NCBI GenBank assembly: GCA_015689775.1
Contig: WVSR01000002.1
Coordinates: forward strand, 62,001 to 126,000
DNA: 64,000 nt
Origin: Rhodobacterales bacterium LSUCC0387
Lineage (GTDB): Bacteria > Pseudomonadota > Alphaproteobacteria > Rhodobacterales > Rhodobacteraceae
Direction: 5' to 3'
Position 1 is the first letter of the stretch. Each line of letters begins with the position of its first letter. The notes under the pieces are model-generated. The model did not search any database and had not been told where the DNA came from. It saw nothing but the letters and a program-made list of their open reading frames with translations. The position numbers and the translations under genes are program-made. Shown here piece by piece: positions 57,559-64,000 of the stretch.

Positions 57559-57635
57559 TTTCTGTAAATTTCGTCGGTTTAGAATGTTACTATCGTAATA
57601 CTGCTAAAACTTAGATTAGTAAGTCTGTATCAGTT

Positions 57636-57648
57636 GTTTTCGTAAAAC
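57636..57648. promoter_or_regulatory. Dyad GTTTT-CGT-AAAAC upstream of the asparaginase-like gene
   Basis: A short symmetric element extends to partially matched flanks (AGTT on the left, AACT on the right). It lies in the 152-base region between DUF952 and the asparaginase-like gene, 63 bases before the latter. This may be a regulator site for the right-hand cluster; chance is not excluded. Confidence 0.35.
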
Positions 57649-57710
57649 GAACTAGTTTTTGTTTCGATAAGCTTCACGCTTACTTGCGTCCAAACTAACT
57701 GTGTGACTTT

Positions 57711-58736
57711 ATGAACAGCAATGTAAGTTTGAGATCGAAGTTAATGAAGCCCTCAAAAAAGGTAGCTTTAATCGGATGTGGTGGAACGATTTCCACTCGC
57801 GCTTCTCACGCTTTTGATGTTTTAGATTACCCTGAAATTGGGCATAAGCTTACTGCAAATGAGATGGTTTCCGAATTACAACCATTCGTAGATTTTGCTG
57901 ATTTAGAGCCGATCGCTTTTCGAGAAGTTGGATCAAGCAAGATTGGTCCAACAGATTGGTTGGAGCTAGCGCGCTTAGTAAGAAATATATTTGATGAGAA
58001 ACCTGAATTAACGGGGATAGTCATACTTCATGGAACTGCAACATTAGAAGAAACGGCTTTTTTTCTCGATCTGACAGTTGAAATAGATCGCCCGGTTGTC
58101 CTTGTAGGCGCTCAGCGACCGCTAGGAGCCGTAGGTAGTGATGCATTGTCCAACGCTGTAGCGGCAATTCGAACGGCCACCGATGAGAAGGTACGTTCGA
58201 TGGGGGTTTTGATTGTTTTTAACGATGAAATTCATAGTGCCCGCGATGTTGCTAAGGGCTCTACTTATCGCCTAAATGCGTTTTCTTCGGGAGCTTATGG
58301 CGCATTAGGTGTTGTAGATCCAGATGGGGTGCGGGTCAGACGAGCGCCGCTTCGTAGTGATGTCAAATTCTCCATTTCTCACCTTTCTGCCCTACCTCGG
58401 GTGGATGTGCTTTATGCTGTTGCTGGGGGTGATGAAACAATTGCACGTGCTTGTATAAAAGCTGGTGCCCGTGGTTTAGTTTCTGCGGGTTTTGCCCCGG
58501 GTATGACATCTCCATTAGAATGGAAAGAATTACTGAGGGCGGTTTCTAAAGGTATCCCGGTTGTACAATGTAGCCGAGTCGCTTCTGGTAGGATCGCGCG
58601 AAGGTTACATTTGAAAAAATTCAGTATTATTTCTGGAGAAAACTTGTCAGCTCACAAGGCGCGAATTTTGCTTATGGTGGGACTGACCGTTACTGATGAG
58701 ACTGAAGCGTTGCAAAACTATTTTGATCAGATGTGA
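57711..58736 (+). CDS. Asparaginase/glutaminase-family amidohydrolase with altered triad
   Basis: The 341-residue protein has the N-terminal nucleophile motif CGGTIST (T26) and the second motif HGTATLEETAFFLDL. In typical asparaginases the second motif is HGTDTxEET; here the aspartate of the Thr-Asp-Lys triad is alanine (A110) while T109 and K182 (RDVAKGS) remain. The enzyme family hydrolyses the side-chain amide of asparagine or glutamine. The substitution and the downstream imidase-like gene suggest a different amide, such as a half-amide of a dicarboxylate. M12 (57744) is an alternative start. The next gene starts one base after the stop. Confidence 0.8.
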   Translation: MNSNVSLRSKLMKPSKKVALIGCGGTISTRASHAFDVLDYPEIGHKLTANEMVSELQPFVDFADLEPIAFREVGSSKIGPTDWLELARLVRNIFDEKPELTGIVILHGTATLEETAFFLDLTVEIDRPVVLVGAQRPLGAVGSDALSNAVAAIRTATDEKVRSMGVLIVFNDEIHSARDVAKGSTYRLNAFSSGAYGALGVVDPDGVRVRRAPLRSDVKFSISHLSALPRVDVLYAVAGGDETIARACIKAGARGLVSAGFAPGMTSPLEWKELLRAVSKGIPVVQCSRVASGRIARRLHLKKFSIISGENLSAHKARILLMVGLTVTDETEALQNYFDQM

Positions 58737-58737
58737 A

Positions 58738-59631
58738 ATGAAACTGAGGGCTCATAATCGTTATGACTATATCCCCTTGCCAGATCGGCAGGATTACACC
58801 TGGCCGGAAGGGAAAAGATTAGCTTTCTGTTTATGCAATAACTTGGAAGTATTTTCCTATCGAGACGGTATCGGATCTGATAGTGCGGTTTTAAATGCTC
58901 CTCAGACACATCGTAATTACGCGTGGCGTGACTACGGAAATAGAGTTGGTCAATGGTATCTCTTTGACTTGCTCGACGATTTTTCAATTCCTGCATCGCA
59001 TAATTCAAATTCCGCGCTTTTCAGGCGTCACCCGCAACTGCTGGATAGGATAAAACGGAGGGGTGATGAAATAGTTGCTCATGGCCGTTCTAACGGTGAA
59101 CGACAAGACGTCTTGGATGAACCAAACGAACGTAAATTGATACAGGAAGCTACCGAAGAGCTTATTGAACTGATTGGTTACCAACCAAAAGGGTGGATGG
59201 GGCCGTATTTCGCGCAAAGCGAAGTAACATTAGATTTGCTGCAAGAAGCTGGATATTGCTTCAATTTGGATTGGCCCGCAGATGATCAGCCATTTTGGAT
59301 GCGTACACGTAATGGTCGTATTATGTCTGTGCCATACTCAATTGAATTGAATGACTCACCCTCGATGGTTTTTCGGCAAGAGAGCGCAATGTCGTTTGAA
59401 AGGATGATCCAAGACCAATTCGATGAAATGATGTACCTATCCCAAAAACGGCCTCTTGTTTTCACATTAATTACTCACCCATTTGTCTTTGGTCATCCGT
59501 ATAGGCTCAGAGCATTGCGCCGTGCTTTGACGCATATAATGAAGCGCCGAGACGATCTTTGGATTACAACCGTTGGAGGCGTTTACGATTATTGCGCTAG
59601 TCTCGAAAAGGGCATTTTGCCTGGGAGTTGA
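58738..59631 (+). CDS. Polysaccharide deacetylase-family protein (PuuE allantoinase/imidase-like)
   Basis: The protein is 297 residues from the ATG at 58738, one base after the asparaginase-like stop. It has the NodB-homology fold as used by PuuE and cyclic imidases: HNSNSALFRRHPQLLDRIKR, GDEIVAHGRSNGERQ, GWMGPYFAQSEVTLDLLQEA, NLDWPADDQPFWMR and VPYSIELNDSP. The NDD and HG motifs common in these amide-cleaving members are clear. It should hydrolyse a ring amide (allantoin, succinimide-type imide) rather than a sugar acetyl group. Coupling to the amidase-like gene suggests successive ring opening and deamidation. Confidence 0.82.
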   Translation: MKLRAHNRYDYIPLPDRQDYTWPEGKRLAFCLCNNLEVFSYRDGIGSDSAVLNAPQTHRNYAWRDYGNRVGQWYLFDLLDDFSIPASHNSNSALFRRHPQLLDRIKRRGDEIVAHGRSNGERQDVLDEPNERKLIQEATEELIELIGYQPKGWMGPYFAQSEVTLDLLQEAGYCFNLDWPADDQPFWMRTRNGRIMSVPYSIELNDSPSMVFRQESAMSFERMIQDQFDEMMYLSQKRPLVFTLITHPFVFGHPYRLRALRRALTHIMKRRDDLWITTVGGVYDYCASLEKGILPGS

Positions 59632-59632
59632 G

Positions 59633-59661
59633 GCACTTTCTCTAATCGTGTCAAAAAGTGC
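59633..59661. terminator. Possible hairpin between convergent genes
   Basis: GCACTTT (59633-59639) can pair with AAAGTGC (59655-59661) across a 15-base loop, between the convergent deacetylase-family gene and tcuB. No strong T-run follows on either strand, so the terminator call is weak. Confidence 0.3.
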
Positions 59662-59701
59662 GGCTGTTCGAAAAAGGCAAATGTATCCCTCGCCATTGAG
59701 A

Positions 59702-60778
59702 TTACGGACTGTTTGAATCCGTTTTACGTTGCGCATCACGCACCAACGCGGCAAAGCGGTAAATGCCGTGAACCATTTTTGTATACGGCGTAAGTAGAAA
59801 GAACGCGAGGACTGCTCCGAGATGGGTCGCCAAAGCCAGCGGCATCCAGGCGGTCTGACCAACGATATATAAAACGATTCCGCTGGCAGCTACAAAGCCC
59901 AAGAGCGCAATAAAACCGAATTCCCCATTGCGCGCTGCCATTGAACCTAAATTAGGATCAGCTTTAAGTTTGAGGCGAAATAACCAAACAGCGCCCCATG
60001 TTAGCATCAGGCCGCCAGGGACACCCAGAAGTTTGGGCAACGAGAACAAACCGTATGGCGCTGACAGGTCAAAGGCGTAGTGGAGAATGGTTCCTGAGGA
60101 GGTGCTCGCAAAACACAGCAGGAACCCATATAAAACTAATTGATGGGCAACGCGCCTCGCTTGGGTGAAGCGGTCTTCGTCTTCAAAATTACAGCCCTCG
60201 CCATGCCCACCAGCCAGGTTGTGCATATTAGCAGCAGCGCGAAGAGCGTCGTGAAGATGACTTAGTTCAATGCGCGTACCGTCCACAGCCAGCCAATACC
60301 GACGCAAACTTACTATGAGACTGGCAAGTGGTAACACGAAGGCAGGTGCAAATATTACAACCATTAGGTCGTGAGACATAAACGCGTAAAACCCTTCTCC
60401 GTTACCTCGCCCTAGCCATTGGGTCAAAACGAACAAAGCAGCAAAACAAAGACTGGTGGCAAGAGCGATGGCCATCCCATTTTTTTGAAAATGGGTTGCG
60501 ACAAAACGCGGATACGCAAAAGCTTCCCAGCTGTCTTGCCTGACCTCTGCTAGAGCGGCTGGTAGGTTTAGGTCGAACTCATGAGGAGCCGTGTACTGGC
60601 ACGCGTAGTAACAGCCACGGCAATTGTGACAGAGATTTGCCAATTGTATGATGTCTCCATCAGAAAACTCTCGATTGCTATGGAGCGAAGGGAAAACTGA
60701 GCAGTAGCCTTCACAGTAGCGGCATGCATTGCAAATCTCAGACTGCCGGCGCGCTTCTTCCTTCGTATCAATTAGCAT
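59702..60778 (-). CDS. tcuB: Tricarballylate utilization protein TcuB (Fe-S/heme membrane protein)
   Basis: The 358-residue protein starts with an iron-sulfur region: CNACRYCEGYCSVFP and CHNCRGCYYACQYTAPHEF provide two ferredoxin-like 4Fe-4S motifs (residues 17-70). The rest holds about six hydrophobic helices with histidines in HQLVLYGFLLC and FDLSAPYGLFSLPKLLG, compatible with heme binding. In tricarballylate users TcuB passes electrons from the reduced flavin of TcuA to the quinone pool. The gene overlaps the tcuA end by eleven bases. Confidence 0.9.
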   Translation of the reverse strand: MLIDTKEEARRQSEICNACRYCEGYCSVFPSLHSNREFSDGDIIQLANLCHNCRGCYYACQYTAPHEFDLNLPAALAEVRQDSWEAFAYPRFVATHFQKNGMAIALATSLCFAALFVLTQWLGRGNGEGFYAFMSHDLMVVIFAPAFVLPLASLIVSLRRYWLAVDGTRIELSHLHDALRAAANMHNLAGGHGEGCNFEDEDRFTQARRVAHQLVLYGFLLCFASTSSGTILHYAFDLSAPYGLFSLPKLLGVPGGLMLTWGAVWLFRLKLKADPNLGSMAARNGEFGFIALLGFVAASGIVLYIVGQTAWMPLALATHLGAVLAFFLLTPYTKMVHGIYRFAALVRDAQRKTDSNSP

Positions 60779-62168
60779 ACTTTGCAGCCTCTTTCCCGGC
60801 GATGCGTCCGAAAACGGTACCGATAGTCATTCCAAACCCTGCTAAATATCCTTGACCCAGAATGGATCCGGCCATTGTTTCACCCGCAGCCCAAAGGTTG
60901 CTTACCGGGCGATTGCCAACGCTACATTGCGCGTTCTCATCGACCTTCAATCCCAGGTACGTGAATGTGACTCCGGTGCGTAGCGAGTAACCATAAAAAG
61001 GTGCTTCTATAATGGGCCGTGCCCAGTTGGTTTTTGGTGGTTTAAGGCCAGATGTGCTTACACCATCCAGCTCTGTAGGGCGAAAGCCGCTAGTATCACC
61101 ACAGCTTGCATTGAATTTGTCTACCGTAGCTCGCAGCTTTTGAGCTGGTAGATCCATTTTTATTGCTAAATCCTCAATTGTGTCCGCTTTAATTGGTGGG
61201 AAGACGGACGGCATGAACAGTTCAAGTGACTCAGCATCGATGATTGCATAGCCTATTTGCTCAGGCTGAGCGGCGATCAATCGACCCCATATAGCATAAC
61301 GTTTGGGCCATACGTCTTCGCCTTCATCATAGAACCGTTCTGCATCCTTATTGACCACAATCGAGAATGGCACACAATCAAGCCGCGTGACGATGCCACC
61401 ATCATATTTTGGCGAGCGTCCGTCTATAGCTACCGCATGGCATTGTGTCGGATCTCCCACTTGCTCTAATCCCTGGCGGAGCAAATCGTCTAGAACTACA
61501 CCACGATTATAGGGCGTGCCTCGTATTAGAAAATTCTTGGCAGCAGGGCCCCAGGCACGTGCAAGCCAATCGGTATCTGCTTGAAATCCGCCTGATGCGA
61601 CCACAACTGCCTTTGGCGATAGTCGGAAAGATTGCTCGCGCTGAATGTAGTCGAGATAGAGGACCTCGCCGTCATCGACCTCAAGATGTGTGACGCTTGC
61701 ATCGTATTTGACATCTACTCCCAAATTTTCAGCTGTACGGTAATACGCATTGATCAGAGCTTTCCCGCCACCGAGAAAGAAAGCGTTTGTACGGGCAAGG
61801 GACAACGTGCCTGATAGAGATGGCTGAAATCTTACGCCGTGTCTCTCCATCCATGGCATACATTCCTCGGATTGGCGAATAACCATTCGTGCAAGGCCTT
61901 GGTCGGTTTCGCCGTTAGTAACCTTCATTAGATCGTTAAAATATTCATCTTCGCTATAGCTTTCGATTAGAGGCCCTAATGGCTCGGAATGCATGCATCG
62001 AAAATTACGCGTATGACGAGAGTTTCCCCCGCGGTAGGCCTTTGGTGCAGCCTCTAGAATTAGAACCGTTGCACCAGCCTCAGCGGCAGTAATCGCAGAA
62101 CACAGTGCTGCATTTCCACCGCCAATCACGACAATGTCGTAGGACTCTGACGCTCTGATAATCTTCAA
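60768..62168 (-). CDS. tcuA: FAD-dependent tricarballylate dehydrogenase TcuA
   Basis: The protein is 466 residues from a TTG at 62168, seven bases after AAAAGGTG; a TTG six codons further upstream is the alternative. It is a flavoprotein of the fumarate reductase/succinate dehydrogenase type. The FAD motif is DIVVIGGGNAALCSAITAAE with VLILEAAPKAYRGGNSRHTR, and the C-terminal FAD motif is NLWAAGETMAGSILGQGYLA. TcuA oxidises tricarballylate to cis-aconitate. It is followed by tcuB. A 17-bp palindrome lies upstream. Confidence 0.88.
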   Translation of the reverse strand: MKIIRASESYDIVVIGGGNAALCSAITAAEAGATVLILEAAPKAYRGGNSRHTRNFRCMHSEPLGPLIESYSEDEYFNDLMKVTNGETDQGLARMVIRQSEECMPWMERHGVRFQPSLSGTLSLARTNAFFLGGGKALINAYYRTAENLGVDVKYDASVTHLEVDDGEVLYLDYIQREQSFRLSPKAVVVASGGFQADTDWLARAWGPAAKNFLIRGTPYNRGVVLDDLLRQGLEQVGDPTQCHAVAIDGRSPKYDGGIVTRLDCVPFSIVVNKDAERFYDEGEDVWPKRYAIWGRLIAAQPEQIGYAIIDAESLELFMPSVFPPIKADTIEDLAIKMDLPAQKLRATVDKFNASCGDTSGFRPTELDGVSTSGLKPPKTNWARPIIEAPFYGYSLRTGVTFTYLGLKVDENAQCSVGNRPVSNLWAAGETMAGSILGQGYLAGFGMTIGTVFGRIAGKEAAKYAN

Positions 62169-62260
62169 TTTACACCTTTTGGACAATTAAGGATTTGAAA
62201 ACAGCTTGTTTGATCTATCGTCAAACCGGTTAGTAAGGGACAACCAATCAAAGTGCATTT

Positions 62261-62277
62261 ATACTGAACTTCAGTAT
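62261..62277. promoter_or_regulatory. 17-bp palindrome ATACTGAACTTCAGTAT upstream of tcuA
   Basis: Perfect 8-bp arms around a single central base lie in the 136-base gap between the racemase-family gene and tcuA, about 93 bases before the tcuA start. With no T-run after it, an operator is more likely than a terminator. It has a T-N11-A-like spacing compatible with LysR-type regulators; TcuR is LysR-type in other bacteria. No regulator gene is visible in the window. Confidence 0.5.
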
Positions 62278-62304
62278 CGATAATTGTTTTTTATTAAGTT
62301 CCAT

Positions 62305-63069
62305 TCAATGGCCATACTTAGATGCAGTTTCAAGCATAGCATGTATAACTTCCGGCTTCGGTTTCGGAGATTTTGGGTAGGCAGTTCTACTATGTGATAG
62401 GTTTAGGCCAAACAAAGCCTCAGCCATAGCATATGTAAGCGGTCCTGGGTTTATAACTGGGACAGGTAGCGCCTCAGCCAAATGCATGTGGGCTTGGTGC
62501 ATGGTGGTTGAGCCTAAGACTATGACATCAGCTCCGTCAGTTTCGATGCATTGTAGTGCAAGTTCCGTAAGAGCTGGGAAGATGTCAGATTCTTTTCCGG
62601 TTAATAGGCTTTGGTTATTTGGCGTCATATTTAATGCTCTGATTGACGCGCAGGCATGGGCTATACCAAGCTCATCGAGCGTCTTCGTATAGAGGTGCTT
62701 CCAGTGCGGCCAAAGTGCAATAATTGAGAAACGTTTTCCCAGCATCATCGCCATTAGAAGCGAGGCTCGCCCGGGGCCAATAACTGGTATAGTCAATTCA
62801 GACCTCAGGGCCGCCATCCCACTGTCACTCATCGTGTCAATGCATACTGCGTCAAATCCCCGTTTTTCTGCTTCTAGACCAGCCTCTAAAACTCCTATCT
62901 CGGCGAGCGCCATATCTGAGGCGCTTACGTAATTTTGTGGCGCTACCTTAACGGATTCAAACGTAAAAGATATGTCTGGACCTAATTTTACAGCATTCAG
63001 CTGTTCTTCTCTCTGACTGCGATTTTCTGGCGTCATAGGAAATGGAACAATTACAAGAACAGATTTCAT
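62305..63069 (-). CDS. Asp/Glu racemase-superfamily protein
   Basis: The 254-residue protein has the racemase fold with C76 (AVCIDTMSDSG) in the first half, but the second-half position holds S186 (VIVLGSTTM) where two-base racemases have cysteine. The superfamily also includes maleate cis-trans isomerase and arylmalonate decarboxylase, which use other residue pairs. Given the altered second position and the tcuAB neighbours, an isomerase acting on a di- or tricarboxylate is a reasonable alternative. It is divergent from the MmgE/PrpD gene with 84 bases between. The hydantoin racemase in this window has both cysteines. Confidence 0.82.
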   Translation of the reverse strand: MKSVLVIVPFPMTPENRSQREEQLNAVKLGPDISFTFESVKVAPQNYVSASDMALAEIGVLEAGLEAEKRGFDAVCIDTMSDSGMAALRSELTIPVIGPGRASLLMAMMLGKRFSIIALWPHWKHLYTKTLDELGIAHACASIRALNMTPNNQSLLTGKESDIFPALTELALQCIETDGADVIVLGSTTMHQAHMHLAEALPVPVINPGPLTYAMAEALFGLNLSHSRTAYPKSPKPKPEVIHAMLETASKYGH

Positions 63070-63153
63070 TTTAGCACTCCAAACGCAGTGATTTTATTGT
63101 GATTTTTTTAATTTTAAGTAACATTAAATCCAAATTTTTGAAAGGCTACACCT

Positions 63154-64000
63154 ATGAAGCATTTGTTGAATTTTGCCGAGTTTCTTGCACAGGTTTCAGT
63201 TCCAGATGATGTTTTAAATAAAACGGCATTGATCTTTTGTGACAGTATTGGCGCCATAGTCGGAGGAGCGGAGGAGCTAGAAGTTCGTTCGTTAACGGAA
63301 AAGTATTCGTCCCGATCTGATGGCCCTGCCATAATTATCGGTTCAAAAAGTTTAACTGACATAAAAGTTGCTGCTTTTTTGAATGGCACTGCCGGTACGA
63401 CCCTTGAAATGGATGAGGGTAATCAATTTTGTAAAGGCCACCCCGCAATGCATGTCATTCCAGCGGCACTAGCGGAGGCTTCGGTTCAAAAAGTATCTGG
63501 AAAAAAGCTGCTTACAGCAATTGCGCTGGGGTATGAGGCTGCAGCGCGAGTTGGAATTGCAACGTCTTTACGGCCGGCAATGCATCCGCATGGTACTTGG
63601 GGTGCAATTGGGGCAGCAGTGGCGGTGATGCATCTAAGAGATGCCAGCGCAACACAAGTTTATGAAGTTATGAATATTGCGGCAAACCTTGGCCTTACAA
63701 CCTCGCGAAAAACGATGTTGGAAGGTGGGACAGTTCGAAATGTATTCGCTGGTATTTCAAACAAGATGGGTTTGATTGCCGCAGATCTAGTAGAAGTAGG
63801 ATATTCAGGTGATCGCAACGGGGTAGGGCATGTTTTTGGATCTGTCGCCTCTGATAGTTTTGATGACAGTGCACTTTCAGATCAACTTGGGGAACGTTGG
63901 GAAGTGATGAGAAACTATTTCAAAATGCACTCCTGTTGCCGTTATAATCATGCAGCGTTGGATGTGATTGAAGCTTTGCAGGTTAAGCATCCCAGCATGT
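63154..64000 (+). CDS. MmgE/PrpD-family protein, 3' end cut by the window edge
   Basis: An open frame from the ATG at 63154 (AAAGG upstream) runs to the window end without a stop, covering 282 codons of a family that is usually about 450 long. PrpD-fold landmarks are FCDSIGAIVGGAEE, GTAGTTLEMDEGNQF, GHPAMHVIPAALAEA, GYEAAARVG and RPAMHPHGTWGAIGAAVAV. The family includes 2-methylcitrate dehydratase, cis-aconitate decarboxylase and iminodisuccinate epimerase. Next to tcuAB the aconitate-related functions are attractive, but this is inference. Confidence 0.88.
   Translation, partial: MKHLLNFAEFLAQVSVPDDVLNKTALIFCDSIGAIVGGAEELEVRSLTEKYSSRSDGPAIIIGSKSLTDIKVAAFLNGTAGTTLEMDEGNQFCKGHPAMHVIPAALAEASVQKVSGKKLLTAIALGYEAAARVGIATSLRPAMHPHGTWGAIGAAVAVMHLRDASATQVYEVMNIAANLGLTTSRKTMLEGGTVRNVFAGISNKMGLIAADLVEVGYSGDRNGVGHVFGSVASDSFDDSALSDQLGERWEVMRNYFKMHSCCRYNHAALDVIEALQVKHPSM

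Follow-up and report, generated by a model that had tools for sequence, protein, structure and literature searches.

A horizontally inserted gene island in Rhodobacterales bacterium LSUCC0387 with a recurrent core and a candidate pathway for a carboxylated N-heterocycle

Six adjacent genes, here named A to F, occupy positions 57711-64000 of a 64,000-nt stretch of the genome of Rhodobacterales bacterium LSUCC0387 (the window; G000:C2:62001-126000). An earlier note on this DNA had proposed that they form a new pathway, and the question is whether these six genes make up one unit or are parts of another. We read the contig on rightward of the window, as the note had advised, and found that A-F form the left end of an inserted, probably catabolic island, the recurrent core of which lies to the right of the window: genes H, M, K, J, L and G with a transporter, also found in Roseivivax, Tianweitania and Methylobacterium. 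The pairs A-B, E-F and C-D (TcuAB) are separable, optional add-ons to this core.

The island and its genes

The island is ~37.6 kb long and holds 33 genes between a DUF952 gene and tRNA-Gly(TCC), with A-F at its left end. It covers 57559..64000 of the window and continues to about C2:157161, next to the tRNA-Gly(TCC) at C2:157162 (L004:3162). Only ~90-130 bp separate the DUF952 gene from the tRNA-Gly(TCC) in G003 and G002, which are sister species, and at that site the genes A-Zk have no match with E <= 1e-10 in either species; the SDR and cupin genes right of the tRNA-Gly do match in G002. Genes A, D and E are without match in all three same-genus genomes at the thresholds used (one of these genomes being 69% complete). 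The guanine-cytosine (GC) content of genes A to LeuD is low, 0.43-0.51, compared with a mean of 0.513 for window positions 1-57000, 0.54-0.56 for two long genes that lie beyond the first block on its right and 0.51-0.56 for the flanks overall. Direct repeats of at least 10 bp were looked for at the island borders, and none was found.

All six genes of the left end belong to the families that the earlier note had given, as judged from open reading frames and Pfam and NCBIfam scores. Gene A (57711..58736, plus strand) encodes a subfamily of asparaginase-fold amidase: it scores 173 bits against Pfam asparaginase (cut-off 22.5) and 233 bits against type II L-asparaginase TIGR00520, under the cut-off of 314.3. 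Gene B (58738..59631, plus strand) encodes a PuuE-like protein of the polysaccharide deacetylase fold, a putative cyclic-amide hydrolase, with 33.5 bits against Polysacc_deac_1 (cut-off 23.1) and 97.6 bits against allantoinase PuuE TIGR03212, under the cut-off of 424.6; its first ATG (58696) would overlap A, and the start at 58738 agrees with its relatives. The reading of B as an imidase is made less likely by the solved structures (imidase sequences being outside the comparison), among which B is nearer to PuuE (3cl6; 81.6 bits, E 5e-22) than to HpPgdA (3qbu; 45.2 bits, E 7e-11), the structure linked to imidases in the part of PMC9304392 consulted.

Genes C (59702..60778) and D (60768..62186), both on the minus strand, encode a TcuB-type iron-sulphur electron-transfer protein and a TcuA-type flavin adenine dinucleotide (FAD) dehydrogenase. 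C exceeds the cut-off of TcuB TIGR02484 (342 bits; cut-off 246.6) and is under that of a second TcuB model, NF011607 (369 bits; cut-off 524), while D is well above that of the TcuA equivalog NF006130 (667.4 bits; cut-off 369). In the family search, E (62305..63069, minus strand) matched only a broad model, Pfam Asp_Glu_race (102 bits; cut-off 31), and had no NCBIfam match. Gene F (63154..64000, plus strand, on past the window to L002:8479) is complete in L002 and specifies an MmgE/PrpD protein of 441 amino acids, with 121 and 114 bits against the Pfam N and C domains (cut-offs 32.1). The A, B and F proteins belong to their superfamilies and reach no named NCBIfam cut-off.

To the right of F follow G (PrpB-like lyase), H (hydantoinase/allantoinase-like cyclic amidohydrolase) and I (nitroreductase-methyltransferase fusion). 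Further island genes are J and L (MmgE/PrpD), K (flavocytochrome-c-like FAD enzyme), M and O (isochorismatase fold), N (SnoaL), P (AtuA), Q and R (PuuE-like), S (MFS), T-U-V (TRAP transporter), W (FAD), X (a second PrpB-like lyase), Y (isochorismatase-like) and HyuA-HyuB; the last are a tautomerase-DUF4440 protein, a GntR regulator, an HMG-CoA-lyase-like gene, a CaiB-like gene and a LeuC-LeuD pair. Eight of the 33 genes (S, U, V, Y, GntR, HMG-CoA-lyase-like, CaiB-like and LeuD) were named by eye and the other 25 by family search. Among the 33 genes thus named, no pyridoxal-phosphate (PLP) enzyme or oxygenase was recognised, nor was a coenzyme A (CoA) enzyme among those of the core. J and L also pass the MmgE/PrpD Pfam domain cut-offs, and the cut-offs for PrpD proper are failed by F (23 of 950 bits; NF042438), J (22 of 458; TIGR02330) and L (24 of 575; NF006943) alike. 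The two lyases are under the PrpB TIGR02317 cut-off of 354 (G, 296 bits; X, 301 bits). The second-best solved match of G is petal death protein, which we take to be a 2-alkylmalate lyase.

Recurrence of the core and its optional modules

Ordered pieces of this neighbourhood recur elsewhere, so that the adjacency of its genes exceeds chance. The best 80 of 446 asparaginase loci were kept (7 of the 80 mapped, 10 aligned); among them, the subfamily of A is represented in Roseivivax isoporae (L044; 64% identity), an uncultured Rhodobacteraceae (L045; 60%), Tianweitania aestuarii (L047; 53%) and two metagenome-assembled genomes of Alcaligenaceae (L046, 51%; L048, 49%), the rest being at most 39% identical. 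It also occurs in G400 (59%) and G083 (49%). In L044, L045 and L047 the order is identical, G-M-K-J-H-A-B, I on the opposite strand, the TRAP genes T-U-V, and L; TcuAB adjoins this type-1 cluster in L044 and L047, and G400, of the window's family, has a type-1 cluster as well. In the mapped DNA of L046 and L048, A stands without B or the core. G083 (L124) presents a third arrangement of the same gene kinds, with an A-subfamily asparaginase near an MmgE/PrpD gene, HyuA-HyuB relatives and, by eye, a branched-chain-type ABC transporter.

The type-2 cluster (M-L-K-J, TRAP, I, H, ... G) is found at 46-82% identity in G247, G437, G304 and G209, all four of which include F-E, with HyuA-HyuB, N, O, P, Q and R variable; TcuB-TcuA lies beside E-F in G247 and G437. 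G771, of another family, carries a type-2 cluster that lacks J, E and F, and a distant relative of A (46% identity) outside the cluster. With I as a marker at 1e-80, matches occur in 8 of the 394 genomes of the family and in 2 of the 385 of the class, G000 being counted in each.

In all, we counted 12 chromosomal clusters (window, L044, L045, L047, G209, G239, G247, G304, G309, G400, G437 and G771). The counts cover the DNA fetched, with L045 read with 10-kb flanks and the G209 contig to 20 kb of its 35 kb, and the absence of a gene near a cluster may reflect a cut. A and B occur together in five clusters (window, L044, L045, L047 and G400) and are adjacent in five of the eight examined loci holding the A subfamily. 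E-F is present in six (window, G209, G239, G247, G304 and G437) and TcuAB is adjacent in five (window, L044, L047, G247 and G437). The full set of six genes was found in the window alone. The functional link drawn in the earlier note is upheld for recurrent catabolic units, with A-B often adjacent and TcuAB beside the unit in 5/12 clusters, and is not supported for the six genes as the pathway; likewise, the co-occurrence of all six in other genomes, by which the link was to be judged, is replaced by that of their parts in ordered blocks. A wide separation of A-B from tcuAB in relatives, which the note had named as counting against it, is seen in G400, where they are on different contigs, and is not seen in R. 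isoporae or T. aestuarii.

In the eight G genomes with clusters, TcuA has no match at 1e-80 in four, is on another contig in two and in the cluster in two. It is common among relatives, being present in 19 of 121 genomes, of which one is that of the window; each of the 18 other loci has TcuB as a neighbour. In five TcuA loci opened more widely, no other gene of the A-LeuD series was near, save that one has a Zk relative.

Trees show the island to be a mosaic: its B groups with the type-1 sequences (support 100/99), and K and M fall among those of type 2. It is thus a type-2 island joined with an A-B pair of the type-1 kind.

The smallest form of the unit is that on plasmid records. Plasmids of Methylobacterium currus and M. 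nodulans carry GntR, G, M, a branched-chain ABC transporter, L, K, J and H, and the 29 kb fetched hold no other orthologue-like island gene, bar two racemase-family genes; these lie ~5 kb from the core in M. nodulans, one being 30% identical to E. Plasmid 4 of Variovorax sp. SRS16 has ABC, L, K, J, a GTP-binding protein, H and M, with no G in the 29 kb fetched. I, A, B, F and TcuAB are absent from the plasmid cores in the stretches fetched, and a plasmid search with I at 1e-40 gave no match. E has a module of its own elsewhere, consisting of E, an E-like second copy, FAD enzyme W, lyase X and F, to which HyuA-HyuB and Y are added in Neorhizobium petrolearium; similar sets occur in Tistrella mobilis pTM1 and Rhizobium rhizoryzae, and in Variovorax paradoxus E and its second copy stand alongside two PuuE-like genes and an isochorismatase-like gene. 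We examined three of five plasmid records with K (not H9 and H11) and four of six with E (not H3 and H6).

Catalytic residues, candidate pathway and competing readings

The earlier note had described the amidase A as having an altered triad, and this was confirmed: A keeps both Thr and the Lys, and the change lies in the triad Asp, which has become Ala (HGTDT to HGTAT; HGTATLEET in A), in 8/8 subfamily rows. A nearby Gln is changed to Ser or Thr in the same rows (Ser in A). Eight other asparaginase-like rows have Asp (six), Asn (one) or Gly (one) at the triad position. In asparaginases, the triad Asp and that Gln presumably hold the alpha-amino group of the substrate; since these are the residues changed in A, a natural guess is that its substrate is an amide without an alpha-amino group. 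H keeps its metal ligands (HxH, Lys, two His and Asp), M keeps its Cys, and G and X keep the KKCGH motif of PrpB-type lyases in the wide sense, a kinship that extends to the 2-alkylmalate lyases of the petal-death-protein type. Residue names were looked for in PMC7347537, where they do not occur.

Our best explanation, to which we give about an even chance, is that the island takes up and degrades a carboxylated N-heterocycle with its ring nitrogen in amide-type bonds (a cyclic imide, ureide or lactam). We infer the class of substrate, the reactions and the order of steps from gene content, recurrence, insertion and the kept or altered residues. The TRAP transporter would import the acid, the ring of which would be opened by H (hydantoinase/allantoinase-type) and B (PuuE-type). 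The amidases M (isochorismatase fold) and A (asparaginase fold) would free ammonia, leaving a substituted 1,4-dicarboxylate, the feature that characterised MmgE/PrpD substrates have in common according to the portion of PMC12290011 seen. A double bond would be added by the flavin enzyme K, or by TcuAB where present; the MmgE/PrpD proteins J, L and F would hydrate or epimerise the product; and the lyases G and X would cleave a C-C bond to yield a 2-oxo acid and a carboxylic acid, for central metabolism. With neither a PLP enzyme nor an oxygenase recognised in the island, the nitrogen would be lost most simply by hydrolysis.

Several observations weigh against this scheme. Residues are changed in several of the enzymes. 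E-type rows have Thr and Ser at the two racemase Cys sites in 13 of 14 cases, and the 14th also lacks both Cys (rows under 60% coverage, loci L034 and L041-L043, weaker relatives and plasmid copies were left out of this alignment). K has Ile and Tyr where the aligned flavocytochrome-c fumarate reductases have Arg and His. Arg replaces the Lys of aligned solved relatives in 9/9 F-type rows, with the His positions kept, and at the same position in 10/10 distinct L-type rows (L197 and L198 being one G771 gene), and J-type rows keep the Lys and have Gln for His (9/9). Lys and His of this kind are listed as dicarboxylate-binding in the part of PMC12290011 available, the mapping onto F, J and L being by the present alignment. 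Because of these changes, E, F, J, K and L may carry out other chemistry.

Other points against it come from gene content. I is present in all 12 chromosomal clusters and absent from the plasmid cores, and the linear scheme gives it no role. Nor does this scheme explain two reduced clusters, G239 (E-F-I-TRAP, with weak HyuAB relatives ~6 kb off) and G309 (TRAP, a 43% identical B relative and I). The presence of three PuuE-like genes, three isochorismatase-type genes, HyuAB and H may mean several substrates. Outside the core, two island genes look CaiB-like and HMG-CoA-lyase-like by eye, so that CoA chemistry may also take part. Lastly, G247 has between G and F a nitrilase-family gene (L177:6269-7207), by eye like N-carbamoyl-amino-acid hydrolases, which would favour a hydantoin-type substrate.

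Such a substrate is the basis of the strongest competing explanation, which we regard as possible, if clearly less probable than the one preferred. H would open a 5-substituted hydantoin or a dihydropyrimidine acid, M or a nitrilase-family carbamoylase would remove the carbamoyl group, E would act as a relative of hydantoin racemase, and the resulting amino-dicarboxylate would be oxidised by K or pass to an MmgE/PrpD protein of the iminodisuccinate-epimerase kind. The closest solved structures are in its favour: L-hydantoinase 1gkr for H, N-carbamoylsarcosine amidohydrolase for M, hydantoin and allantoin racemases for E and PuuE for B, with iminodisuccinate epimerase as a solved relative of F and J; HyuA-HyuB is also present in the island. 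However, both racemase Cys are missing from E, no curated cut-off is reached by H (among 25 listed of 62 models) or by M, and no enzyme for removing the amino group left over was recognised. We rank this explanation second because a cyclic ureide leaves an amine without an obvious enzyme, while the nitrogen of an imide goes by hydrolysis alone.

Alternatively, the site may have gathered unrelated catabolic operons that share an address and no pathway, which we consider rather improbable. The PyrD-MurA interval does vary among species (54.8, 51.2 and 17.7 kb), the island is a mosaic of two cluster types, and relatives often have TcuAB by itself, but blocks of 6 to 15 or more genes are found again, in order, in other genomes and on plasmids.

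Catabolism of opine-like compounds, in which the island would degrade imino-polycarboxylates and lactams as proposed for a succinamopine Ti plasmid, is still less probable. Relatives of the asparaginase, HyuA/HyuB and mmgE genes, which occur in one region there (PMC6733357, in the part consulted), are all in the island; yet no opine oxidase or dehydrogenase was recognised in it, A is without the residues thought to hold the amino group of asparagine, and the plasmid cores lack asparaginase and HyuAB in the stretches fetched.

Least probable is the route of the earlier note, here read as B and A turning a cyclic imide or amide into tricarballylate or a relative, TcuAB making cis-aconitate and F decarboxylating or isomerising this to itaconate: TcuA and TcuB pass curated cut-offs, and F and E adjoin TcuAB in the window, G247 and G437, but F has Arg for the conserved Lys, TcuA is unmatched or on another contig in most of the cluster genomes as given above, E-F lacks adjacent TcuAB in G304, G209 and G239, and, in the R. 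isoporae and T. aestuarii DNA fetched, TcuAB comes without E-F. We dropped it as the leading reading on account of that Arg, of the missing TcuA, and of a caveat concerning the best solved match of F, B. subtilis 'IRG1', which probably has another function (PMC12290011, as far as seen). A route from maleimide via maleamate and maleate to fumarate, suggested by the co-occurrence of B, M and E with E as maleate isomerase, was likewise dropped, E being without both Cys.

Within the preferred explanation of a carboxylated N-heterocycle, a more specific version is a long shot: the core would be the first bacterial pathway to degrade the imides left when tetrapyrroles (chlorophyll, bilins and heme) are broken down to single rings, such as hematinic acid and methyl-ethyl- or methyl-vinyl-maleimide. 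Once the imide is opened and deamidated, a 2-alkyl-3-methyl-maleate would be formed; its hydration by MmgE/PrpD (or LeuCD-like) proteins would yield a 2-methyl-3-alkyl-malate, which the PrpB-like lyase would split into pyruvate and an acid (glutarate from hematinic acid). In the portion of PMC7318184 seen, hematinic acid is described as chlorophyll debris, and maleimides are cited from leaves and lake sediments, none being detected in the leaves of that study. If this version were true, the altered asparaginase A, the Cys-less E and the MmgE/PrpD proteins with Arg for Lys would each represent a new enzyme function, and a gap in the fate of chlorophyll nitrogen would be filled.

Known systems and minor observations

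The candidate pathway for opening an N-containing ring acid looks undescribed, and no publication on this gene set was among those listed in the literature searched, most subscription journals being outside its scope. The Aspergillus nidulans nicotinate pathway (HxnM imidase and HxnN amidase; PMC9304392, consulted in part) is alike in that a PuuE-related ring opener is followed by an amidase freeing ammonia, which leaves a hydroxy-dicarboxylate. It differs in that no pyridine-ring hydroxylase was recognised in the island, HxnN is FAAH-like while A has the asparaginase fold, and HxnM is described there as nearest HpPgdA, whereas B is nearer PuuE. The 2-methylcitrate cycle (PrpD and PrpB) shares the combination of an MmgE/PrpD protein with a KKCGH lyase, but G, X, F, J and L fall under the respective cut-offs, the last three far under. 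With tcuABC, the island has in common C and D above TcuB and TcuA cut-offs, and in L044 and G247 the genes that come next are, by eye, those of a GntR regulator and an AbrB-like membrane protein; here, however, TcuAB stands beside an amide-hydrolase cluster, and half of the cluster genomes have no TcuA match.

The itaconate/methylsuccinate cluster also employs an MmgE/PrpD protein in dicarboxylate catabolism, an (S)-(R)-methylsuccinate isomerase, which is a recent addition to the functions of the family (PMC12290011, the part seen). That route is CoA-dependent, whereas the island core is without a CoA gene and F, J and L differ at aligned binding residues. The succinamopine region of pTiEU6 unites asparaginase, HyuA/HyuB (hydantoinase/oxoprolinase A and B) and mmgE, but the part of PMC6733357 consulted makes no mention of an H-M-K-J-L-G core. 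The six-enzyme core is found in alphaproteobacteria and partly in a betaproteobacterium, on chromosomes and plasmids, and is without a described substrate; it constitutes a compact, testable target through which MmgE/PrpD, isochorismatase and PuuE-like genes, so far annotated by family alone, might be assigned functions.

As for E, the earlier note had given it one cysteine; the family assignment stands, but the protein has three (76, 140 and 174), none of them at the two catalytic positions, and 13 of 14 E-type rows have a Cys two residues before the first catalytic position. In G209 (C236:18441-19193), the E gene includes an in-frame TAG and may be decaying there, and G100 has eight matches to E (L127-L129), several as tandem pairs. 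The GTP-binding protein gene of Variovorax sp. SRS16 (L217:16680-17726), next to H, may specify a metal chaperone for H. Gene I (L002:10932-12341) has MPWGG, invariant in three aligned sequences, where a motif binding S-adenosylmethionine is expected; in 11 of the 12 clusters no more than ~3 kb separates it from TRAP, against ~12 kb in the window cluster. A predicted structure of I (three sequences) was discarded (mean predicted local distance difference test score, 52).

The pyrD-murA interval beside the tRNA-Gly is a site of gene exchange in the genus. It corresponds to C2:118-174 kb in G000, G002:C1:2503001-2557000 (L226-L228) and G003:C3:51901-71900 (L229), the lengths given above being in this order, and its content differs as well as its length; in G003, the tRNA-Gly is followed by genes read by eye as a phosphonate (phn) operon. 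In G000, a second low-GC block next to a tRNA-Thr (L004:13236-18344) comprises, by eye, amidohydrolase, PdxA-like, enoyl-CoA-hydratase-like, CaiB-like and HIBADH-like genes.

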